A stretch of 33,325 bases of DNA from Mariprofundus sp. (GTDB lineage: Bacteria > Pseudomonadota > Zetaproteobacteria > Mariprofundales > Mariprofundaceae). The position numbers and the translations under genes are program-made. The notes below the pieces were generated by a model that was given only the letters and a program-made list of their open reading frames with translations, had not been told where the DNA came from and made no database searches. The stretch lies in NCBI GenBank assembly GCA_027013105.1, contig JALUYG010000347.1:1-33325 (forward strand), read 5' to 3'. This document shows, piece after piece, positions 11,712 through 23,726 of this stretch; positions within the stretch are counted from its first letter, which is position 1; every line of letters starts with the position of its first letter.

Positions 11712-12992
11712 TTAAACCACCATCCCCGCCCCAACGGTGTTGTTGGTAAATGTATCGATCACAATAAAGCTGCCGGTCGTACGGTTCTCCGCATAGCTAT
11801 CGCAGTGCAGCGGCTTCATCAGCTTGAAGGTGATCTGGCCGATTTCATTCATGGCCAACTCATCGGCCTCATCCTTGTTGAGCGTATGAATATCACGGCG
11901 AAAATCGATGCTGGCCACCATCGCTCTGACGCTGTTGGTGGTATGCTTCAGCAGGTATTTTTTTCGCACGGACAGCGGCTCATCGCCAATCCAGCAGACA
12001 TTGGCGGTCAGCTCCTTGCTGTCGGCGGTTTCATGGCCCGGGTGCACCAGCATATCGCCGCGCGACAAGTCGATTTCATCATTCAGCGTCAGCGTAATGC
12101 TCTGCGGCGCAAAAGCCTCGTTCAGATTGCCATCAAAGGTGACGATCTCTTTCACAGTCGAGCGATTGCCGCTGGGAATCGCCACCACTTCGTCGCCAAC
12201 CTTCACCGTGCCGGACGCAATCGTACCCATAAAACCGCGATAATCGGGCAGATCGGCCGTCTGCGGCCGGTTCACCAGTTGCACCGGCAAACGGAAGGGC
12301 TTTTTATCCACATCGTCCAGCACCGACAACCCCTCCAGCGTTTCCAGCAACGTTTGGCCCTCATACCAACCCATATTGTCGCCGCGCACAGCCACCATAT
12401 CGCCATCCAGCGCCGACATCGGAATACAGATCAGATTCTTCACCCCCTGCCTGGCGCAGTAGTCATTCATCTCATCGCGAATCTGTTCAAAAACCGCCCG
12501 GTCGTGATCAACCAGATCCATCTTGTTGACCGCCACAATCAGATGCGGAATCCCCAACAACCCCAGGATATGGGTATGTCGCCTGGTCTGCTGCATCACG
12601 CCGTTGCGCGCATCGATGAGAATAATGGCGGCATTGGCGGTTGAGGCGCCGGTCACCATATTGCGCGTGTACTGCTCATGGCCCGGACAGTCGGCCATAA
12701 TAAACTTGCGTTTCGGGGTGGCAAAATAGCGATAGGCCACATCGATGGTGATGCCCTGCTCGCGTTCGGCCGACAAACCGTCAGTCAACATGGCCAGATC
12801 AATCTCCGCCGCCGAAGCGACATGCTCCACCCCTTTCTGTTTGCGCACAGCCAGCAACTGATCCTCAAACGCCCCCTTGGTATCGACCAGCAGACGCCCG
12901 ATCAGTGTCGATTTGCCATCATCCACACTGCCCACCGTCACCAGCCGCAGCAGTTCGATCTCTTCAGCTACCTTGATATTAAGTTTAGTCAT
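11712..12992 (-). CDS. cysN: Sulfate adenylyltransferase subunit 1 (CysN GTPase)
   Basis: LLRLVTVGSVDDGKSTLIGRLL, EREQGITIDVAYRYF, DCPGHEQYTRNMVTGAS; ATG (MTKLNIK) at 12992 preferred over GTG at 13001. Confidence 0.93.
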   Translation of the reverse strand: MTKLNIKVAEEIELLRLVTVGSVDDGKSTLIGRLLVDTKGAFEDQLLAVRKQKGVEHVASAAEIDLAMLTDGLSAEREQGITIDVAYRYFATPKRKFIMADCPGHEQYTRNMVTGASTANAAIILIDARNGVMQQTRRHTHILGLLGIPHLIVAVNKMDLVDHDRAVFEQIRDEMNDYCARQGVKNLICIPMSALDGDMVAVRGDNMGWYEGQTLLETLEGLSVLDDVDKKPFRLPVQLVNRPQTADLPDYRGFMGTIASGTVKVGDEVVAIPSGNRSTVKEIVTFDGNLNEAFAPQSITLTLNDEIDLSRGDMLVHPGHETADSKELTANVCWIGDEPLSVRKKYLLKHTTNSVRAMVASIDFRRDIHTLNKDEADELAMNEIGQITFKLMKPLHCDSYAENRTTGSFIVIDTFTNNTVGAGMVV

Positions 12993-13008
12993 CTCTTTCA
13001 CCCTTCAG

Positions 13009-13079: not shown

Positions 13080-14003
13080 CTAGAAATACCCTTCTTTTTT
13101 CTTGTCTTCCATCGAATTGGAGCCGTGGTCGATGATGCGTGTTTCACGCTCCGAGCGGCGCGCTGCGGCCGCTTCAATAACAATCTCATCCATATTGGTG
13201 GCATCCGAACGCACCGCGCCCGTGCACGGGCTGCACCCGAGGGTGCGGAAACGGCTCATCACCATCTTCGGCTCCTCGCCTTCCAGCAGCTGATCCTGCA
13301 TCTCTTCATAGTAGGGAATCAGCAGATGCTTACGCTCCACCATCAATCGTTCCTTGGCAAAATAGAGCGGCACAATCGGAATGTTCTCTTCACGAATATA
13401 GAGCCAGATATCCATCTCAGTCCAGTTGGAGATCGGGAATACGCGCACGCTTTCACCTTCATGTATGCGGCCATTATAGATATTCCACAGTTCGGGACGC
13501 TGATTCTTCGGATCCCACTGGCCGAACTCGTCACGCATGGAGAATACGCGTTCCTTGGCTCGACTGCGCTCTTCATCGCGGCGCGCACCGCCGAAGGCGG
13601 CATCGTACTCACCCTCTTCCAGCGCATCGAGCAGCCCCTGCGTTTTCAACGCGCCGCAGCAGCGCGCCACGCCGTACTCCTTCGGATTCATGCCTTTGGC
13701 GATGGCCTCCTCATTGCGTCGCACAATCAGATTGGCGCCGATCTCCTTACAAAATGAATCCCGGAATTCATACATCTCCTTAAACTTGAAACCGGTATCG
13801 ACATGCAACAGCGGAAACGGCAATGGCGCCGGATAAAACGCCTTGCGCGCCAGATGCAATAACACGCTGGAATCCTTGCCCACCGAATAGAGCATGACCG
13901 GATTACGAAACTCCGCCACCACTTCACGGATAATATGAATCGACTCCGCCTCCAGCGCTTTAAGCTGCGTCAGTTTGTGTTCAGATATGTTACTTTCAGA
14001 CAT
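13080..14003 (-). CDS. cysD: Sulfate adenylyltransferase subunit 2 (CysD)
   Basis: [40 protein letters not shown]; start at [14 protein letters not shown]. Confidence 0.93.
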
Positions 14004-14120
14004 TAACGTCTCCTGCTTATCTATGATGAAGCCATCAACAACTTCACTTAAATCGTCATCATGGGAAAATCGTACAGTGGCGGCCATTATAGCAGAAATA
14101 AACCTGCGCGCGCGAACCGC

Positions 14121-16778
14121 CTATCCCAACGCCCCGCCGTTCACCCCAAAACCAATCAGCGGCCACCAGAATTGCACCAACAACACGAACAGCAGCAGCG
14201 CCGTCAGGGATAGCGCCGCGCCGAATCGCAACATCGCCAGGCGCTCCACAAAACCGGTGCCGAACGCCATGGCGTTGGGCGGCGTGCCCATCGGCAGCAT
14301 AAAGGCGAAGCCTGCAATAATACCCACCGACAGCGCCACCGCGAGCGGATCGATGCCGGCCGAGAGCCCTGCAGAAATCGCAACCGGCAACAAAATCGCC
14401 ACCGCCGCCGCATTGCTGACCCCTTCGGTTAAAATCAATGTCGCCAGCGTCATCACCACAATCAACGACAAGCCGGTCAGCCCGTGCGGCAACAACTGCG
14501 TGGCCAGCCACGCCCCCGCGCCGCTAACGCTCAACGCCGAGCCGACTGCAATGGCGCCGCCATACATCAGTACCACGCTCCAGCTCACATGCTGTTCAAT
14601 CTCATCCCAACGCACCAGTCTCAGCCCGAACATGCTCGCCACGCTGAGCAGCGCGATCGCAGCCAGCGAGGTGGAATGCCCGCCAGCCATCCAGGCGACC
14701 ACCGTCAATGCGATCAACCCACCCATCAACCAGCCGCGCAGCTGTAGGTTACCCAGCTCCAGTTGACGCTCTTCAATACACCGACGCGCTTCGCTCACAC
14801 TGATCCTGTCAAACGGAGTCACCATCAGCAGTAGCGCCATCGCCGCCAGCAGCATCAGCACAACCAGCGGCGCCGCCGCCAGCGTCCAGTCCAGAAATGT
14901 GAATGTACGGCCGGAAATCTGTTGCACCATGCCCAGCGCCAACGGCCCGCGAGCACCGCCCAGCAGCGTCATCACGCCGCCGATAATCGCCCCCCACGCC
15001 ACTGCAAAAAACAGCGACTGGGCATAACGATCACCGATCTTCAGATTCAGGTGGCGAACAATATCCCGTGCAATCGGCAGAAAGATCGCCGCCACAGCAT
15101 GTTCGGGCATGACAAAGGCCATCACGGCCGGCAACCACAGCATCACCATCAACAGCTGTTTCGGCCCCGACCCCAATCGATCGATCAACGCCAGCGCCAC
15201 ATGCTCCGACAAGCCGGTAGCGCGGGCGCCGGCCGCCAGCATAAATGCGCCCAGAATAAAAAACACCGCCGGCGTACCGAACATGCTGTACGCCTCGGCG
15301 GCCGGAACCACGCCGCTTAACGGCAGCAGCGCCAACCCCAGCAGCGACGTCACCGCCAACGGAATCAGGCCGCTCACCCACAACGCCAGACAGAACAGGA
15401 AGATCAACAAGGCATGCCAGCCCTGGCCGCTCAAGCCTGCCGGCGACTCCTGCAGGCCAGCCCACAGGCCAAGCAGCGAGAACAGCGTCAGGGCCGCAAA
15501 TGGCACGCCCTCTTTGGCCAGCGCCCAATGCAGCGACTGCTTGCCAGACCGCCTGCTCCGCGCATCCATCCTGCCGTTGGAACGCAGATAACGGCGCAGC
15601 CCGTCCATCCAGCCGGAAACGTGACGACCAAGGCTGGATGTGGCCACCTGCTCCGGCAGATAGGGCTCCTTACCCACCAGCAAGCCGCTCTCCATCGGTG
15701 TCAGCACCCGCCCCATATCACGCAAGCGGTGCGTCGGCATGCCGGAGGATTCCAGCAACTCATACTGCACCAGCAGCGCCTGCTCCACATCATCCAGACT
15801 GGCCAATGGGCAGTCGCTCAAAGCCGTGCCCGGCAGCGGGCGAAACGGCAGCAGCATCGGCACAATGCCCTGCCCGACCAGCATCTTCATGCCCGCAATT
15901 GTCGATTTCAGCGGTTCAAGCCCGACTATCAGGTGGCTAACCACCGCGCCGGAGCGAAACACCGAACGGGCATGGCTCAGCGCCCGGTATATCGCTTTTT
16001 GCCCGCCAATCGCCTGTTTGCCCGGACAGATTTCAGCAAAGCGATCGGCGTCATACACCTCGACATTACAGACAAAGACATCCAGCCCGGCTTCATACAA
16101 CTCATCGATGGCGGACAGATCGGACGGGGCGACGGTCTCCAGCGCAATCTGGCGATGGCCCAAGTGCTTGCGCAGCAGCGCCACAACCGCCACCAGCTTT
16201 CGCAGGCCGACATCATCGGACGGAGAGTAGCCGTTGTAGAGATAGACCGTATCCACTTCGCGTTCGGCCAGCGCCGCCCGCACTGTCTCCACCAGTTCCA
16301 GCGGATCGCGCAGCGGCGGTTCCGCCGCATTGAGCATTGAGTCGTACTGACAATACTGGCAGGCCTGACCCGGCTTATTGAAAAAGCCGCAGCCCAGAAA
16401 CGGATGTAAAATCAACAGCCGATCATGCAGCGCCGCGAAACTGCCCATGCGCGCGCCGCTACGGGTGGTTTTCTGATAAAAAGCCGGCGCCGGCAGCAGC
16501 GTGACCGGCGACACCTCGCCGGCGCAATGCAACTCTGTTTTATCGCCCTGATGATGCAACGAAAAGGTGCTCTTTTCAGTGTATGGCTGGCCGACCGGCA
16601 CCGTGCACATCTGGCCAGTCGGCAGCCGGATATCGAGCACTGTCTCAATCGCATTGGCCTGCGAAATCCATCTGGAGGCCTGCGGCAAGCCTTCCGGCAA
16701 CGCCACGCCCCGGCTAACCAGCGACAGCTTGGTGCGCCCCGGATTGGCAAACGGATGCAGATCAGTAATGGCGTTCAT
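14121..16778 (-). CDS. Fusion: N-terminal radical-SAM domain plus C-terminal SLC13/DASS-type anion permease
   Basis: N-terminal half has CGFFNKPGQACQYCQYDS (Cx9Cx2C) and radical-SAM barrel segments (VYLYNGYSPSDD, DVFVCNVEVYD, SHLIVGLEPLKSTIAGM); C-terminal half about 11 TMs with SLC13 features (ILTEGVSNAAAVAILLPVA, AFMLPMGTPPNAMAFG). Start assigned to MNAITDLHPF. Confidence 0.8.
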   Translation of the reverse strand: MNAITDLHPFANPGRTKLSLVSRGVALPEGLPQASRWISQANAIETVLDIRLPTGQMCTVPVGQPYTEKSTFSLHHQGDKTELHCAGEVSPVTLLPAPAFYQKTTRSGARMGSFAALHDRLLILHPFLGCGFFNKPGQACQYCQYDSMLNAAEPPLRDPLELVETVRAALAEREVDTVYLYNGYSPSDDVGLRKLVAVVALLRKHLGHRQIALETVAPSDLSAIDELYEAGLDVFVCNVEVYDADRFAEICPGKQAIGGQKAIYRALSHARSVFRSGAVVSHLIVGLEPLKSTIAGMKMLVGQGIVPMLLPFRPLPGTALSDCPLASLDDVEQALLVQYELLESSGMPTHRLRDMGRVLTPMESGLLVGKEPYLPEQVATSSLGRHVSGWMDGLRRYLRSNGRMDARSRRSGKQSLHWALAKEGVPFAALTLFSLLGLWAGLQESPAGLSGQGWHALLIFLFCLALWVSGLIPLAVTSLLGLALLPLSGVVPAAEAYSMFGTPAVFFILGAFMLAAGARATGLSEHVALALIDRLGSGPKQLLMVMLWLPAVMAFVMPEHAVAAIFLPIARDIVRHLNLKIGDRYAQSLFFAVAWGAIIGGVMTLLGGARGPLALGMVQQISGRTFTFLDWTLAAAPLVVLMLLAAMALLLMVTPFDRISVSEARRCIEERQLELGNLQLRGWLMGGLIALTVVAWMAGGHSTSLAAIALLSVASMFGLRLVRWDEIEQHVSWSVVLMYGGAIAVGSALSVSGAGAWLATQLLPHGLTGLSLIVVMTLATLILTEGVSNAAAVAILLPVAISAGLSAGIDPLAVALSVGIIAGFAFMLPMGTPPNAMAFGTGFVERLAMLRFGAALSLTALLLFVLLVQFWWPLIGFGVNGGALG

Positions 16779-16819
16779 CAGGGGGCGCCGGGCGTCTGTC
16801 GAATGATCGTCAGCTCTGG

Positions 16820-19180
16820 TCAGATCGCAGAAATTTTCTCGACCCGGATTTTCCACTGGGTGTCGGAAATTTTCTCTTTCACATGCACTCTCTGGCCCTG
16901 CTCTTCGAGCGACAGCGGCACATTCTCAATCGGCGCGCCGTCATCCAGAATCACCTCCAGTTGCGCCCCGATCGGCATGGTCGAGAGCTTGATCTTCGTC
17001 TTCACAAAATTCATCGGGCAAGCCACGCCGGAGAGATCGAGCAGCACGACATCATCCGAAGCTGCTTCGGCTTTCACATCATCAGCAGGCTCTGCTTCAG
17101 ATGCTTCACCGCCATCCGCTTGCGGCACCGCTGCAAAGCGCACACCGGCCAGCTTCAGCCAGTCCGACTGCACATCGCGCAGCGCTGTCACGCCTGCCGC
17201 AGGATCGGCCAGGTCAATACTCATCAGCGCCGATTGCACAGCCTGGAAACCGGCCATCAATTCACTATCAGCCGCTGCATTGGCGGCCAGCAACCCGAAC
17301 ACCTGCGCATCTTCTTCCGGCGCCTCGCCAAACGGCACCAGAAATGCGCGCGCTGTCGAAATTGCCGAACGCCGCAACGCCGTCAGCGCCTCAGCCCAGA
17401 ACATCGCATCGATATGGGCGCGCGCAATCAGCATCTCGTATTCCGCTTCGGAGATCAGCGCATCGGACATCGACAGCACCGCACCGGCGCACTCGCCCTT
17501 CTTGTTGCCCCTGGTATTGAACGCCTCATTCTCACTCCAGTCGTAAATCAACCCTTCGACCTCTCCTGCATCGGCGACAAACGGCGCCAGAATGGCGGAA
17601 ATTCCCTCTTTGCCCAGACGCGTGGCCCAGTCATGCACCGACTCTTCACCATTGCGCCCGCTCTTATAGGCATTGAGAATGGCGATGCCCGCTTCGGGAG
17701 CATATTTGGCCGGCACAGGATCGGTGGCAAAAGCCAGCGGCGCGCCGGCCACGCCGGAACCGCCAAGATGCAGCTGATAATGCGGCACCGCCTGACCGGC
17801 CACCTTCTTGGCCATGCCGTGAAACCCCAGATCGGCAATATGGTGACGGGCGCAAGAGTGCTGACAGCCGGAGGCCTTAACGGTAATTCCGGCCAGTGTC
17901 GCATCGGTTTTGAAACCTTCCATCAGAGGTCGCAAGGCCGCCGCCAGACCGCGACTGGAGGTGATGCCCAGACGACAGGTTTCCGTACCCGGACAGGCCA
18001 CCACATCGGCAATCGAACGGGCATATTCGGTATGCAGACCGGCATCGTGCAGCAGCTTGAGCGCCGCATCGACCTTGTCCGCATCCACATGATTGATCAC
18101 CACGCCCTGCTCCGCCGTCACCCGCAGCGCCTCAACGCCAGCCGCACGCGCCGCATCGGCGACAGCATGGCACTGGGCCGGCGTCAGATCGCCACGAAAC
18201 AGATTGAGCAGTATCGCTTTCTTGCCGTTATGCTGATCCACCACACCGGATTTGGAGCACGGCAACGCACCGGTCGGCCTGCGCCAGCCGGCTTCTGCAT
18301 AACCATGATCATCGGCATGCGTGGATGCAATCACGGCGCGCTGTTTTTTATACTCTTCAATGAAGCCCTCCGCCCCGAGCTTCTGCGCCACATATTTCAG
18401 GCGGGCGCGAGCGCGGCGTTTGCGATCCGAATACTTAAAGTGCATACGCATCAATGCTTCGCCGACCAGCAGCATTTCGGACTCGGGCACGAAATCCTCC
18501 AGCAGCAGCGCACCCATCGGCTGTGACGACAAGCCGCCCGCAGCCCACACCTGAAATCCGTGGACGCCATCCTGTTCGGCGGCGATAAAACCGATATCAT
18601 GCATGCCGCCCAAGCCGCAATCGGTGGCGCAACCGGAGAAATTCACCTTAAATTTGCGCGGAAACTGCTGCGCCAGCGGATGACGCAGAAAATACTCGGC
18701 GAAACGACGCGCATGCACGCTCACATCGGCATGCTCCGCCGGACATGAGCCGGCCAGAAAACAGGAGGAAACATTGCGCACAGTATTGCCACAGGCCTCA
18801 CGCGTGGTTAGCCCGGCTGCATCGAGACGGCGCAGAAAAGCGACAACATCATCCAGCGCCACAAAATTGGCCTGAATATCCTGCCGCGTGGTGACATGCG
18901 CCAGCTTCTCGGGCGCTTCAGTGAGCGTGCCATCGGTTGGCAACTGACCAGTGTAATCCTCCACGCAATCACCGATCACATCGAGCTGATCCGGCGTCAG
19001 ACTGCCGCCCGGCAACTTGACACGCACCATCTGCACGCCTTCCTGACGCTGACCATAGACGCCCATCTGCAACCGAAACGGCGTAAACCGCTCTTCAGAC
19101 ATCGTGCCGGCGCGAAACGCCTTGTAGCCCGCCTCAAACTCATCCACATCGGATGTTTGCGTAAATTGAAACTCTGTCAT
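16820..19180 (-). CDS. Siroheme sulfite/nitrite reductase with C-terminal extension including a TusA-like domain
   Basis: Siroheme/4Fe-4S motifs NFSGCATDCGLGGMHDIGF, CPGTETCRLGITSSRG, SGCQHSCARHHIADLGFHG; C-terminus LLDLSGVACPMNFVKTKIKLSTMPIGAQLEVILDDG (TusA Cys-Pro motif). Confidence 0.88.
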   Translation of the reverse strand: MTEFQFTQTSDVDEFEAGYKAFRAGTMSEERFTPFRLQMGVYGQRQEGVQMVRVKLPGGSLTPDQLDVIGDCVEDYTGQLPTDGTLTEAPEKLAHVTTRQDIQANFVALDDVVAFLRRLDAAGLTTREACGNTVRNVSSCFLAGSCPAEHADVSVHARRFAEYFLRHPLAQQFPRKFKVNFSGCATDCGLGGMHDIGFIAAEQDGVHGFQVWAAGGLSSQPMGALLLEDFVPESEMLLVGEALMRMHFKYSDRKRRARARLKYVAQKLGAEGFIEEYKKQRAVIASTHADDHGYAEAGWRRPTGALPCSKSGVVDQHNGKKAILLNLFRGDLTPAQCHAVADAARAAGVEALRVTAEQGVVINHVDADKVDAALKLLHDAGLHTEYARSIADVVACPGTETCRLGITSSRGLAAALRPLMEGFKTDATLAGITVKASGCQHSCARHHIADLGFHGMAKKVAGQAVPHYQLHLGGSGVAGAPLAFATDPVPAKYAPEAGIAILNAYKSGRNGEESVHDWATRLGKEGISAILAPFVADAGEVEGLIYDWSENEAFNTRGNKKGECAGAVLSMSDALISEAEYEMLIARAHIDAMFWAEALTALRRSAISTARAFLVPFGEAPEEDAQVFGLLAANAAADSELMAGFQAVQSALMSIDLADPAAGVTALRDVQSDWLKLAGVRFAAVPQADGGEASEAEPADDVKAEAASDDVVLLDLSGVACPMNFVKTKIKLSTMPIGAQLEVILDDGAPIENVPLSLEEQGQRVHVKEKISDTQWKIRVEKISAI

Positions 19181-19197
19181 TTTTAACCTCAGGATTC

Positions 19198-19260
19198 ACC
19201 ACTGAGGACACGAAGAGCACGAAGGAATAAAAGCTTCGTGTGCTTCGTGTACTTCGTGGT
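19198..19260. repeat. Inverted period-9 repeats, CACGAAG family
   Basis: ACCACTGAGGACACGAAGAGCACGAAGG ... CTTCGTGTGCTTCGTGTACTTCGTGGT. Confidence 0.85.
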
Positions 19261-19266
19261 TAAAAA

Positions 19267-20088
19267 TTATTGCCCGAACTTGAGTTCGCAGGCCTGCTCG
19301 TAGGTGACCAGGTCGGTAATGGTCGGGTTTTCTCCGCACAGCGGACAGGCCGGATCCTTGTGCAGTTTCAATTTTTTCCACTCCATGCGCAACGCATCGA
19401 ACACCATCAATCTGCCAGCCAGTGAATCACCGATGCCTAATAATTCCTTGATCGCTTCCACCGCCTGAATGGTGCCAACCGCACCGGCCAGCGCGCCGAG
19501 AATACCCGCCTCGGAGCAGGAGGGCACCAGTCCTGCCGGCGGCGGTTCGGGATAGAGGCAACGATAGCATGGTGCGCCCTTTTCCTGATGCGGCTTAAAC
19601 GTCGCCACCTGCCCTTCAAAGCGAAACATGGCGCCGGAAATCAGCGGCTTCTTCTCGAAATAGCAGGCGTCGTTGACCAGAAAACGGGTCGGGAAATTGT
19701 CGCAACCGTCGATAATAAGATCATACTCACGAACAATCTCGCGCACATTCTCTTCCGTAATGAAGTAGTTGTAGGTGTTCACCTTCACATCCGGATTGAG
19801 CGCCTGCATGGTCTCGCGCGCGCTCTCCACCTTCGGCATGCCGATGCGATCCTGATTATGAATTATCTGGCGTTGCAAGTTGGACGAATCCACCACATCG
19901 GCATCGGCGATGCCGATCGTGCCGACGCCTGCTGCCGCCAGATAATAGGCAACCGGCGAACCCAGCCCGCCGGCGCCAATCATAAACACTTTGGATTCGA
20001 GCAGTTTAGACTGCCCTTCCGCGCCCACTTCCGGCAAAATAATATGGCGCGAATAGCGCTCGATCTGTTCTTCCGTAAAATCAATCAT
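19267..20088 (-). CDS. MoeB/ThiF/HcyF-family E1-like sulfur-carrier adenylyltransferase
   Basis: RYSRHIILPEVGAEGQSKLLESKVFMIGAGGLGSP, DGCDNFPTRFLVND, PEPPPAGLVPSCSEAGILG, CxxC zinc ligands CYRC and CPLC. Confidence 0.92.
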   Translation of the reverse strand: MIDFTEEQIERYSRHIILPEVGAEGQSKLLESKVFMIGAGGLGSPVAYYLAAAGVGTIGIADADVVDSSNLQRQIIHNQDRIGMPKVESARETMQALNPDVKVNTYNYFITEENVREIVREYDLIIDGCDNFPTRFLVNDACYFEKKPLISGAMFRFEGQVATFKPHQEKGAPCYRCLYPEPPPAGLVPSCSEAGILGALAGAVGTIQAVEAIKELLGIGDSLAGRLMVFDALRMEWKKLKLHKDPACPLCGENPTITDLVTYEQACELKFGQ

Positions 20089-20171: not shown

Positions 20172-21107
20172 TCAAACTTCGATGCCCTTGAATAGATCGG
20201 TGGACATATAGCGTTCGGCCATGGAGGGCAGAATCACCACAATGCGTTTACCTTGCATCTCCGGGCGTGCAGCCACCTTGAGCGCCGCCGCCACGGCTGC
20301 GCCGGAGGAGATACCGCCGGGAATGCCCTCTTCACTGGAGAGGCGACGCGCCATCTCAAAGGCTTCGTCGTTGGTCACTTTGACCGCGCCATCGAGGATA
20401 TCGACATTCAGATTCTTCGGGATAAAGCCAGCGCCGATGCCCTGAATCTTGTGCGGCCCGGGCGCTTCTCCGGAAATCACCGGCGAATCAGCCGGCTCCA
20501 CAGCAAACGCCTTAAAATCAGGGTTGCGCTGTTTGATCACTTCAGCAACGCCGGTAATGGTGCCGCCCGTACCCACACCTGCGACAATCGCATCAACATT
20601 GCCATCCGTATCGGCCCAGATCTCCTCGGCCGTAGTCTGGCGATGAACCTCCGGATTGGCCGGATTTTCAAACTGCTGCGGCATGAATGCGCCATCTGTT
20701 TCAGCGACAATTTCTGTAGCTTTGGCAATCGCGCCTTTCATGCCCTTCTCAGCAGGCGTCAATACCAGTTCCGCCCCCAGCAACTTAAGCAGCTTACGCC
20801 GTTCCAGACTCATCGACTCCGGCATGGTCAGAATACAACGGTAGCCCTTGGCGCGCGCCACAAAGGCCAGCGCAATGCCGGTATTGCCGGAGGTCGGTTC
20901 GACAATCACGCCGCCCGCCTTAAGGCGGCCATCGGCCTCCGCCGCTTCAATCATCGCCTTGCCGATGCGATCCTTGACCGAATTGAGCGGATTATAAAAT
21001 TCACACTTGGCAATGATTTCAGCCCCGGAATCCGCGCCAATCCGGTTCAATCGAACCAGCGGCGTATTGCCGATCGTTTCCGCTGCATTGTTATATATCG
21101 CCATCAT
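20172..21107 (-). CDS. cysM: Cysteine synthase (CysK/CysM family)
   Basis: [65 protein letters not shown]. Confidence 0.92.
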
Positions 21108-21316: not shown

Positions 21317-21429
21317 GCGACCCATGGAAGGGTCGCCAACATCAAACGCCCCTGTTTGATGTTGTGAGCATAAAGAAAACCACGCTTTTCTCTATGCGTC
21401 AGAGCAAAAAGTCATGGACGACTTTTTGC
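21317..21429. repeat. Array of four consecutive hairpins with 6-nt loops
   Basis: GCGACCC/GGGTCGC; CAACATCAAAC/GTTTGATGTTG; GCATAAAGAAAA/TTTTCTCTATGC (one mismatch); GCAAAAAGTC/GACTTTTTGC. Confidence 0.85.
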
Positions 21430-21436
21430 GGGTCAA

Positions 21437-21676
21437 TCAGCCTTCGATCACATCCTGTTCGATGGGGGCCACTTTCACCCCCTGATCGGCCAGCCATGCC
21501 GTCGCCGCCTCGACCACGTCGCTTTCACCATCGATCTCCAGACCAACCAGCCCCATATGATTCTTCACTTCCGCAGTTCGAATGTTGGTCACCACATTGA
21601 ACTCCTTGCCCAGCTTCCAGATCAGCGGCTCGCGCACGGTCGATTCATCAAATGTCAGATATACTCGTAATTTCAT
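21437..21676 (-). CDS. Stand-alone NIL-domain protein
   Basis: MKLRVYLTFDESTVREPLIWKLGKEFNVVTNIRTAEV...GLVGLEIDGESDVVEAATAWLADQGVKV resembles the NIL domain of MetN. Confidence 0.8.
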   Translation of the reverse strand: MKLRVYLTFDESTVREPLIWKLGKEFNVVTNIRTAEVKNHMGLVGLEIDGESDVVEAATAWLADQGVKVAPIEQDVIEG

Positions 21677-21708
21677 AACAACTCCTTCGTTATAGCCATG
21701 AACTGAAG

Positions 21709-21818
21709 CCGGATATTTGTTCGAGAGCAAGGCTTGGCAAATGCGGGAAGCGGAGCGTATTGGAAATACGTGAGCATCGCAGCATTTGCCGTAACGCAGC
21801 TATCGGACAAACAGTCGG
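21709..21818. repeat. Imperfect palindromic (cruciform-like) intergenic element
   Basis: Nested arms: TTTGTTCGAGAG/CTATCGGACAAA, GGCAAATGC/GCATTTGCC, CGTATT-GGA-AATACG. Confidence 0.7.
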
Positions 21819-21820
21819 TT

Positions 21821-22099
21821 TCAGCGACCGCCTGCGATGGCCGGCACGATGGAAACTTCATCGCCATCCTTCAATGCAGTACCACGCCCATCCATAAAGC
21901 GGACATCTTCATCATTGACATAGACATTCACAAAACGGCGGATCTCGCCGTTGTCATCACACAGGCGCTCTTTCAGGCCAGGATGCGCCGCTTCCAGATT
22001 TTCGATCACCTCACCGACATTGGCGCCGTCAATGGTCACTTCATCAGCGCCGCCGGTCAGCTTACGCAGCGGGGTGGGAATTCGTACAGATACACTCAT
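21821..22099 (-). CDS. CysO/MoaD/ThiS-type sulfur carrier protein, C-terminus -GGR
   Basis: [21 protein letters not shown]...[18 protein letters not shown]...[17 protein letters not shown]; closely resembles mycobacterial CysO. Confidence 0.88.
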
Positions 22100-22120
22100 T
22101 TGTTTCTCCTTTCAGTTATT

Positions 22121-22187
22121 CACCACGAAGTTCACGAAGAAACCACAGCCATCAATATTTCGTGCTCTTCGTGTACTTCGTGGTTAA
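22121..22187. repeat. Inverted period-9 repeats, CACGAAG family (second copy)
   Basis: CACCACGAAGTTCACGAAGAAA ... TTTCGTGCTCTTCGTGTACTTCGTGGTTAA; shares the 21-mer CTTCGTGTACTTCGTGGTTAA with the copy at about 19243-19263. Confidence 0.85.
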
Positions 22188-22197
22188 TCTTTTTTTC

Positions 22198-23445: not shown

Positions 23446-23477
23446 GTGCCTATCTCCAGTTTCGACTCGTCCAGAAA

Positions 23478-23506
23478 CAAAAAACCTCCGCGATGAAGCG
23501 AAGGTT
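23478..23506 (-). terminator. Rho-independent terminator in the leader (riboswitch expression platform)
   Basis: Minus strand AACCTTCGC-TTCATC-GCGGAGGTT followed by TTTTTG; 9-bp stem with one wobble. Confidence 0.85.
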
Positions 23507-23544
23507 GTATCATAGAGAATGCACGCGTGCATCAGACTGAACAA

Positions 23545-23683
23545 CCCGCATCATCGCTCCCTTGAGGTCTCCCTCTCAGGCAGGCATTGGCACCATTCTC
23601 CTCGGACTCCATCAGGAATCGTTGGCCGGTTGCCGCAGTTTCACAGGGCCTGCACCCTCCACTGCTCTGGATAAGCCGGATTT
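23545..23683 (-). promoter_or_regulatory. SAM-I (S-box) riboswitch aptamer upstream of thrC
   Basis: Minus strand CTTATCCAGAGCAGTGGAGGGTGCAGGCCCTGTGAAACTGCGGCAACC...GGTGCCAATGCCTGCC...GAGGGAG...GCGATGATG matches S-box core elements. Confidence 0.92.
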
Positions 23684-23698
23684 AATATGTAGCGGCGA

Positions 23699-23726
23699 AT
23701 TATCGTGCCGATTTTTCAAAACGCAA
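23699..23726 (-). promoter_or_regulatory. Candidate sigma70-type promoter for the riboswitch-thrC transcript
   Basis: Minus strand TTGCGT-16 nt-GATAAT directly upstream of the aptamer. Confidence 0.5.

Follow-up and report, generated by a model that had tools for sequence, protein, structure and literature searches.

A SAM-I riboswitch and its terminator–antiterminator leader precede a metM-like gene and a sulfur-assimilation gene run in Zetaproteobacteria

The window analysed here is a 33,325-nt stretch of DNA from Mariprofundus sp. (GenBank assembly GCA_027013105.1, contig JALUYG010000347.1, positions 1 to 33,325 of the forward strand). Its minus strand carries a leader RNA at 23478–23683, the limits given in a preliminary description of the DNA, which proved right. 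Behind the leader lie a gene for a threonine-synthase-family pyridoxal-phosphate (PLP) enzyme, which we denote metM-like, a gene for a small MoaD/ThiS-type sulfur carrier, which we denote metO-like, and a collinear run of genes for sulfur assimilation (Table 1).

Table 1 Leader elements and genes on the minus strand of the window
Feature	Position	Strand	Basis or remark
Probable −10 element GATAAT	23699–23704	minus	About 30 nt upstream of the upper P1 strand
Lower P1 extension, 5′ strand AAUCC	23678–23682	minus	Pairs with GGGUU at 23547–23543
SAM-I (S-box) aptamer	23548–23677	minus	RF00162, 61.6 bits, E 3.7e-12, full-length
Antiterminator 5′ arm GCGATGATGCGGGTTGT, P1 3′ strand included	23541–23557	minus	Minimum-free-energy fold, pair counts
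Antiterminator 3′ arm ACAACCTTCGCTTCATCGC, terminator 5′ arm included	23490–23508	minus	Fold, duplex energies, pair counts
Intrinsic terminator: 9-bp stem, 6-nt loop, U tract	23479–23506	minus	
metM-like gene, threonine-synthase-family PLP enzyme, proposed homocysteine synthase, 415 aa	22198–23445	minus	PF00291, TIGR00260
metO-like MoaD/ThiS sulfur carrier, 92 aa, C terminus ...AIAGGR	21821–22099	minus	PF02597, NF041918 SAMP1
NIL-domain protein	21437–21730	minus	PF09383
cysK, cysteine synthase A	20172–21107	minus	TIGR01139, 456 bits
MoeB/ThiF-type E1 adenylyltransferase without rhodanese domain, candidate carrier activator	19267–20088	minus	PF00899; PRK08762, PRK05690
Sulfite/nitrite-reductase-like protein with C-terminal TusA domain	16820–19180	minus	PF01077, PF03460, PF01206
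Radical-SAM/DASS sodium:sulfate-symporter-like fusion, collinear	14121–16856	minus	One open frame; presumed operon member
cysD, sulfate adenylyltransferase small subunit, collinear	13080–14087	minus	TIGR02039, 450 bits
cysN, sulfate adenylyltransferase large subunit, collinear	11712–13001	minus	TIGR02034, 556 bits

The preliminary description had read S-box core elements in the minus-strand leader, and a covariance-model search bears this out: with cmscan at the gathering threshold, RF00162 matches 23677–23548 over its entire length (model positions 1–108) with 61.6 bits against a gathering score of 44.4. An Rfam scan found no other RNA class overlapping the leader at this threshold, and a whole-genome search returned one S-box in the genome. 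The upper P1 of the window copy contains two mismatches. Below it, P1 is lengthened by an AAUCC–GGGUU extension, all five pairs of which are formed in 41 of the 45 leaders scored, and this extension also appears in the fold of the window leader that combines P1 with the terminator.

Downstream of the aptamer, the hairpin AACCTTCGC-TTCATC-GCGGAGGTT (23506–23483; nine pairs, loop of 6 nt, stem energy about −13 kcal/mol) is followed by TTTTG, and the intrinsic terminator that had been proposed at this place is thus present with its U tract and, as described below, conserved. The further proposal, that the 3′ flank of the aptamer together with the P1 3′ strand is complementary to the 5′ half of the terminator, likewise holds: GCGATGA.T.GCG.GGTTGT (23557–23541) faces ACAACC.TT.CGC.T.TCATCGC (23508–23490), forming 16 pairs with one U–U mismatch and a UU bulge. 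Because the 3′ arm of this antiterminator contains the 5′ arm of the terminator, the two structures are mutually exclusive, and because GGGUU is common to the extended P1 and the antiterminator arm, P1 and the antiterminator compete directly. Folding of the free leader yields the antiterminator as its minimum-free-energy structure, at −82.0 kcal/mol; with P1 and the terminator imposed the energy is −75.2 kcal/mol, a gap of about 7 kcal/mol that could plausibly be closed by SAM binding.

This anatomy suggests how the leader would work. At low SAM, GAUGAUGCGGGUU, the 3′ strand of P1, would base-pair with the terminator's 5′ half to form the antiterminator, and RNA polymerase would read through; when SAM is bound, P1 including the AAUCC–GGGUU extension would be held, the terminator would form and transcription would stop before the gene. 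That SAM turns transcription off, as had been suggested, is the expected logic, and the arrangement of terminator and antiterminator supports this as the probable direction of regulation. The leader might alternatively act mainly on translation, hiding the ribosome-binding site rather than terminating the transcript. In some relatives from outside the class, no obvious terminator follows the aptamer, which fits such a mechanism and indicates that expression platforms vary, but a terminator with its U tract is present in all 48 zetaproteobacterial leaders and the Shine–Dalgarno region of the window gene (about 23453–23458) lies outside both alternative stems; we regard control mainly at translation as extremely unlikely here. 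Upstream of the aptamer, a −10-like hexamer at matching spacing occurs in 31 of 46 zetaproteobacterial leaders, compared with 9% of shuffled upstream sequences, and many of the others have AATAAT at this place. We found no convincing −35 element, and a simple sigma-70 scan performed no better than chance.

Conservation was assessed in 48 leaders, comprising the window and 47 relatives, with pair counts made on the 41 distinct aligned leaders. Both the terminator and the antiterminator form in every one of the 48. The antiterminator duplex energy averages −15.9 kcal/mol over this set, as against −9.2 kcal/mol (s.d. 3.0) with the 3′ arm shuffled; the pairing is not due to chance. Among the distinct leaders, the nine terminator pairs are formed in every alignment cell (100%) and those of the antiterminator in 91.8%, values that fall to 42–63% and 30–56%, respectively, when the partners are slid by one to three columns. 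Compensatory changes are few (4 cells in the terminator and 12 in the antiterminator), and with most pairs invariant there is modest covariation in the strict sense, so the support rests mainly on maintained pairing.

The riboswitch is linked to the same gene throughout the class. An S-box is present in 67 of 78 class genomes, exactly one in each, and 66 of these lie 85–345 nt upstream of a metM-like gene on the same contig and strand; the 67th sits at a contig end. Among named organisms, Mariprofundus and other Zetaproteobacteria are closest, with protein identity of up to 97%. Outside the class, an S-box precedes the metM-like gene in loci of Planctomycetota, Actinomycetota, Acidobacteriota and BMS3Bbin03. 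In the nearest named actinomycete, Nonomuraea gerenzanensis, whose homologue is 54.6% identical to the metM-like protein, the order is S-box (68.7 bits), metM-like gene and carrier. A suspicion that the actinomycete S-boxes might be SAM-IV was rejected, as Rfam assigns them to SAM-I. No S-box reached the gathering threshold in three Dadabacteria loci (L052, L053 and L055) or in L059; the three Dadabacteria loci have the metM–carrier pair without an S-box.

The preliminary description saw a threonine-synthase-family gene, and not one of the met genes, under this control, a reading that was not borne out. The protein does pass the threonine-synthase model TIGR00260 (262.4 bits against a cut-off of 167.1), so annotation pipelines would label the gene thrC, and its nearest solved structures are threonine synthases, with which it shares PLP fold type II. 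A second, canonical thrC with a higher TIGR00260 score, however, lies elsewhere in the genome directly after hom, the gene for homoserine dehydrogenase. The S-box gene product is only 32% identical to this ThrC and differs from it in an N-terminal Cys-rich ribbon and in having a carrier partner. In both the tree and the identity comparison it fails to group with the hom-linked ThrC, and the metM-like clade is separated from the genome's own ThrC with support of 99/100; as the tree has several long branches, we use it for this clade separation alone. The carrier gene adjoins the metM-like gene in all clade loci outside Zetaproteobacteria except one, in which it is 2.4 kb away. On these comparisons, the ‘threonine synthase’ label of the S-box gene almost certainly reflects a look-alike, a putative MetM that would make homocysteine.

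The gene content of the genome points the same way. The assembly comprises 392 contigs at about 96% completeness, and gene absences are accordingly not absolute; in it we found neither MetA nor MetX and no full-length PF01053 enzyme (MetB/C/Y/Z), the latter family giving just weak partial matches. The aspartate-semialdehyde (DUF39/HcyBio) route, hinted at by the NIL gene, was rejected because HcyBio is absent from the genome. MetH is present, in two contig pieces. With MetA, MetX, MetB/C/Y/Z and HcyBio absent and MetH present, the metM paralogue is the only homocysteine-synthase candidate found here, and together with the separate hom–thrC pair this led us to reject literal control of the cell's threonine synthase. 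Across the class, 37 of 39 good genomes have a metM-like gene; 25 of these lack a full-length PF01053 enzyme and 12 contain one, and the other two (G025 and G043, good but fragmented) have neither. A full-length PF01053 enzyme is missing from the isolate M. erugo P3 but present in M. ferrooxydans PV-1. Such an enzyme occurs in 15 class genomes in all; in the one case examined (L079, 1486–3844, minus strand) its gene is immediately next to a MetA-like gene. A second S-box occurs in none of the 15 genomes, and the PF01053 route is therefore not under S-box control.

Among the observations that count against reading the gene as a homocysteine synthase are the score against the threonine-synthase model, the co-occurrence of a full-length PF01053 enzyme in 12 of the 39 good genomes, the lack of both genes in G025 and G043, and the in vitro activities of a Microcystis homologue, reported as threonine synthase and deaminase (PMC12172450). 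The first and last of these would suit a second functional threonine synthase, with SAM control balancing O-phosphohomoserine between threonine and methionine. The canonical thrC beside hom, the linkage of the S-box copy with a sulfur carrier and with genes of sulfur assimilation, and the fact that the genome would then have no detected homocysteine synthase all speak against such an enzyme, and repression of threonine synthesis by SAM makes little sense; we judge this reading quite unlikely.

The carrier itself has an unusual end. Zetaproteobacterial carriers (the window and L009–L057) end in GG followed by one to three residues (R, C, K, S, I, V and others), whereas those of most other lineages end in bare GG; Dadabacteria carriers are capped too. 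Elsewhere in the genome, an unlinked gene for a JAMM (Prok-JAB) protease lies beside ribosomal protein genes (L078, 1447–1968, minus strand). The encoded protease has an intact metal motif, HSHPD...S..D, and a Prok-JAB match is found in all 39 good class genomes. By analogy with other JAMM-linked carriers, the capped diglycine and the protease suggest trimming of a carrier pro-form, and the unlinked protease is a candidate for the trimming enzyme.

Beyond the carrier, nearly all zetaproteobacterial loci that extend far enough have a NIL homologue at the matching position. The NIL gene is followed by a 330-nt gap before cysK, and in this gap the perfect hairpin GCAAAAAGTC-GTCCAT-GACTTTTTGC (21400–21436, minus strand) could end or trim the transcript. 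A similar intergenic repeat (accacgaagtacacgaag...cttcgtg) follows metM (22110–22190) and the E1 gene (19190–19260), both on the minus strand. The reductase–TusA protein possibly hands sulfur directly to the carrier system. The radical-SAM/DASS fusion has homologues over its length in many relatives' loci, at 59–88% identity. That cysK and the E1, reductase–TusA, cysD and cysN genes are collinear would also suit a carrier-dependent synthase of cysteine or another thiol, analogous to CysM/CysO, with SAM as a general signal of sulfur sufficiency, and carrier-dependent cysteine synthases are known. Yet a good cysK is already in the genome, the fold family is that of threonine synthase, with O-phosphohomoserine as the substrate, homocysteine formation would otherwise be missing, and methionine genes are the typical company of SAM riboswitches; a thiol synthase of this kind seems very unlikely.

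We conclude that, very probably, an ordinary transcription-terminating SAM-I riboswitch represses a methionine operon led by a homocysteine-synthase metM-like gene. The encoded enzyme would probably turn O-phosphohomoserine into homocysteine, drawing its sulfur from a thiocarboxylate on the neighbouring metO-like carrier; the downstream E1 would probably activate this carrier, with sulfur coming from the sulfite reductase–TusA protein. Transcription may also read through past the carrier gene. A further reading, less likely than not, is a variant of the MetM pathway in Zetaproteobacteria, in which a carrier made in capped form would be trimmed by a JAMM protease, activated by E1 and loaded from sulfite by way of the reductase–TusA protein, and in which a single SAM riboswitch would control all the steps between sulfate activation and homocysteine, cysteine synthase among them.

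Among the closest known systems is MetM/MetO of Streptomyces, described by Hasebe et al. 2024 (doi 10.1128/aem.01247-24), as cited in PMC12172450, as converting O-phosphohomoserine to homocysteine; the same source mentions a SAM riboswitch upstream of MetM in Streptomyces albulus. As far as that account goes, the window is alike in having a threonine-synthase-like enzyme beside a sulfur-carrier gene with a SAM riboswitch upstream, and differs in that its carrier ends in GG plus one to three residues and in the E1, reductase–TusA, cysK and NIL genes downstream. Context and clade, rather than comparison with the characterised S. albulus sequence, make a strong case that the window gene would be MetM. 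Because the gene matches MetM, for which a SAM riboswitch has already been reported, its regulation is of the expected kind, and the surprise voiced in the preliminary description goes away: a riboswitch of known class precedes a met gene of a kind described only recently, and the riboswitch mechanism is not new. Apparently unreported so far are the capped-diglycine carrier with its one to three extra residues, the unlinked JAMM protease and the collinear sulfate-assimilation run.

Two points of interest remain, the capped carrier and the apparent dependence of the whole class on a MetM-type pathway. Such a pathway would account for methionine synthesis in marine iron-oxidising Zetaproteobacteria that lack the textbook homocysteine enzymes. 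‘Threonine synthase’ genes under SAM riboswitches should be considered as possible homocysteine synthases, and the SAM riboswitch could serve as a functional marker of MetM-like genes in several phyla.

Compared with the SAM-I/S-box class (RF00162), the window RNA is alike in its aptamer core and pseudoknot-capable loop and, as in S-boxes with an attenuator, in an antiterminator that shares the P1 3′ strand and a terminator with a U tract; it differs in the P1 lengthened by AAUCC–GGGUU and in its host class, Zetaproteobacteria here as opposed to Firmicutes in PMC4239095, where SAM-I is described as widespread in Firmicutes and is not treated among proteobacterial regulons. The sulfur-transfer genes recall the neighbourhoods that Iyer et al. 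2006 (PMC1779556) class as type 4e, in which ThiS/MoaD, JAB, E1, SirA and sulfite reductase are associated with sulfur assimilation, and the protein-thiocarboxylate methionine pathway of Wolinella (Krishnamoorthy and Begley 2011, cited in PMC5764234). Against what these sources outline, the window shares the carrier, an E1 without rhodanese domain, SirA/TusA and sulfite reductase, and its capped diglycine would likewise imply a JAMM protease. In contrast to them, the window has a threonine-synthase-like enzyme instead of O-acetylhomoserine sulfhydrylase, its JAB gene is unlinked and its TusA is fused to the reductase.
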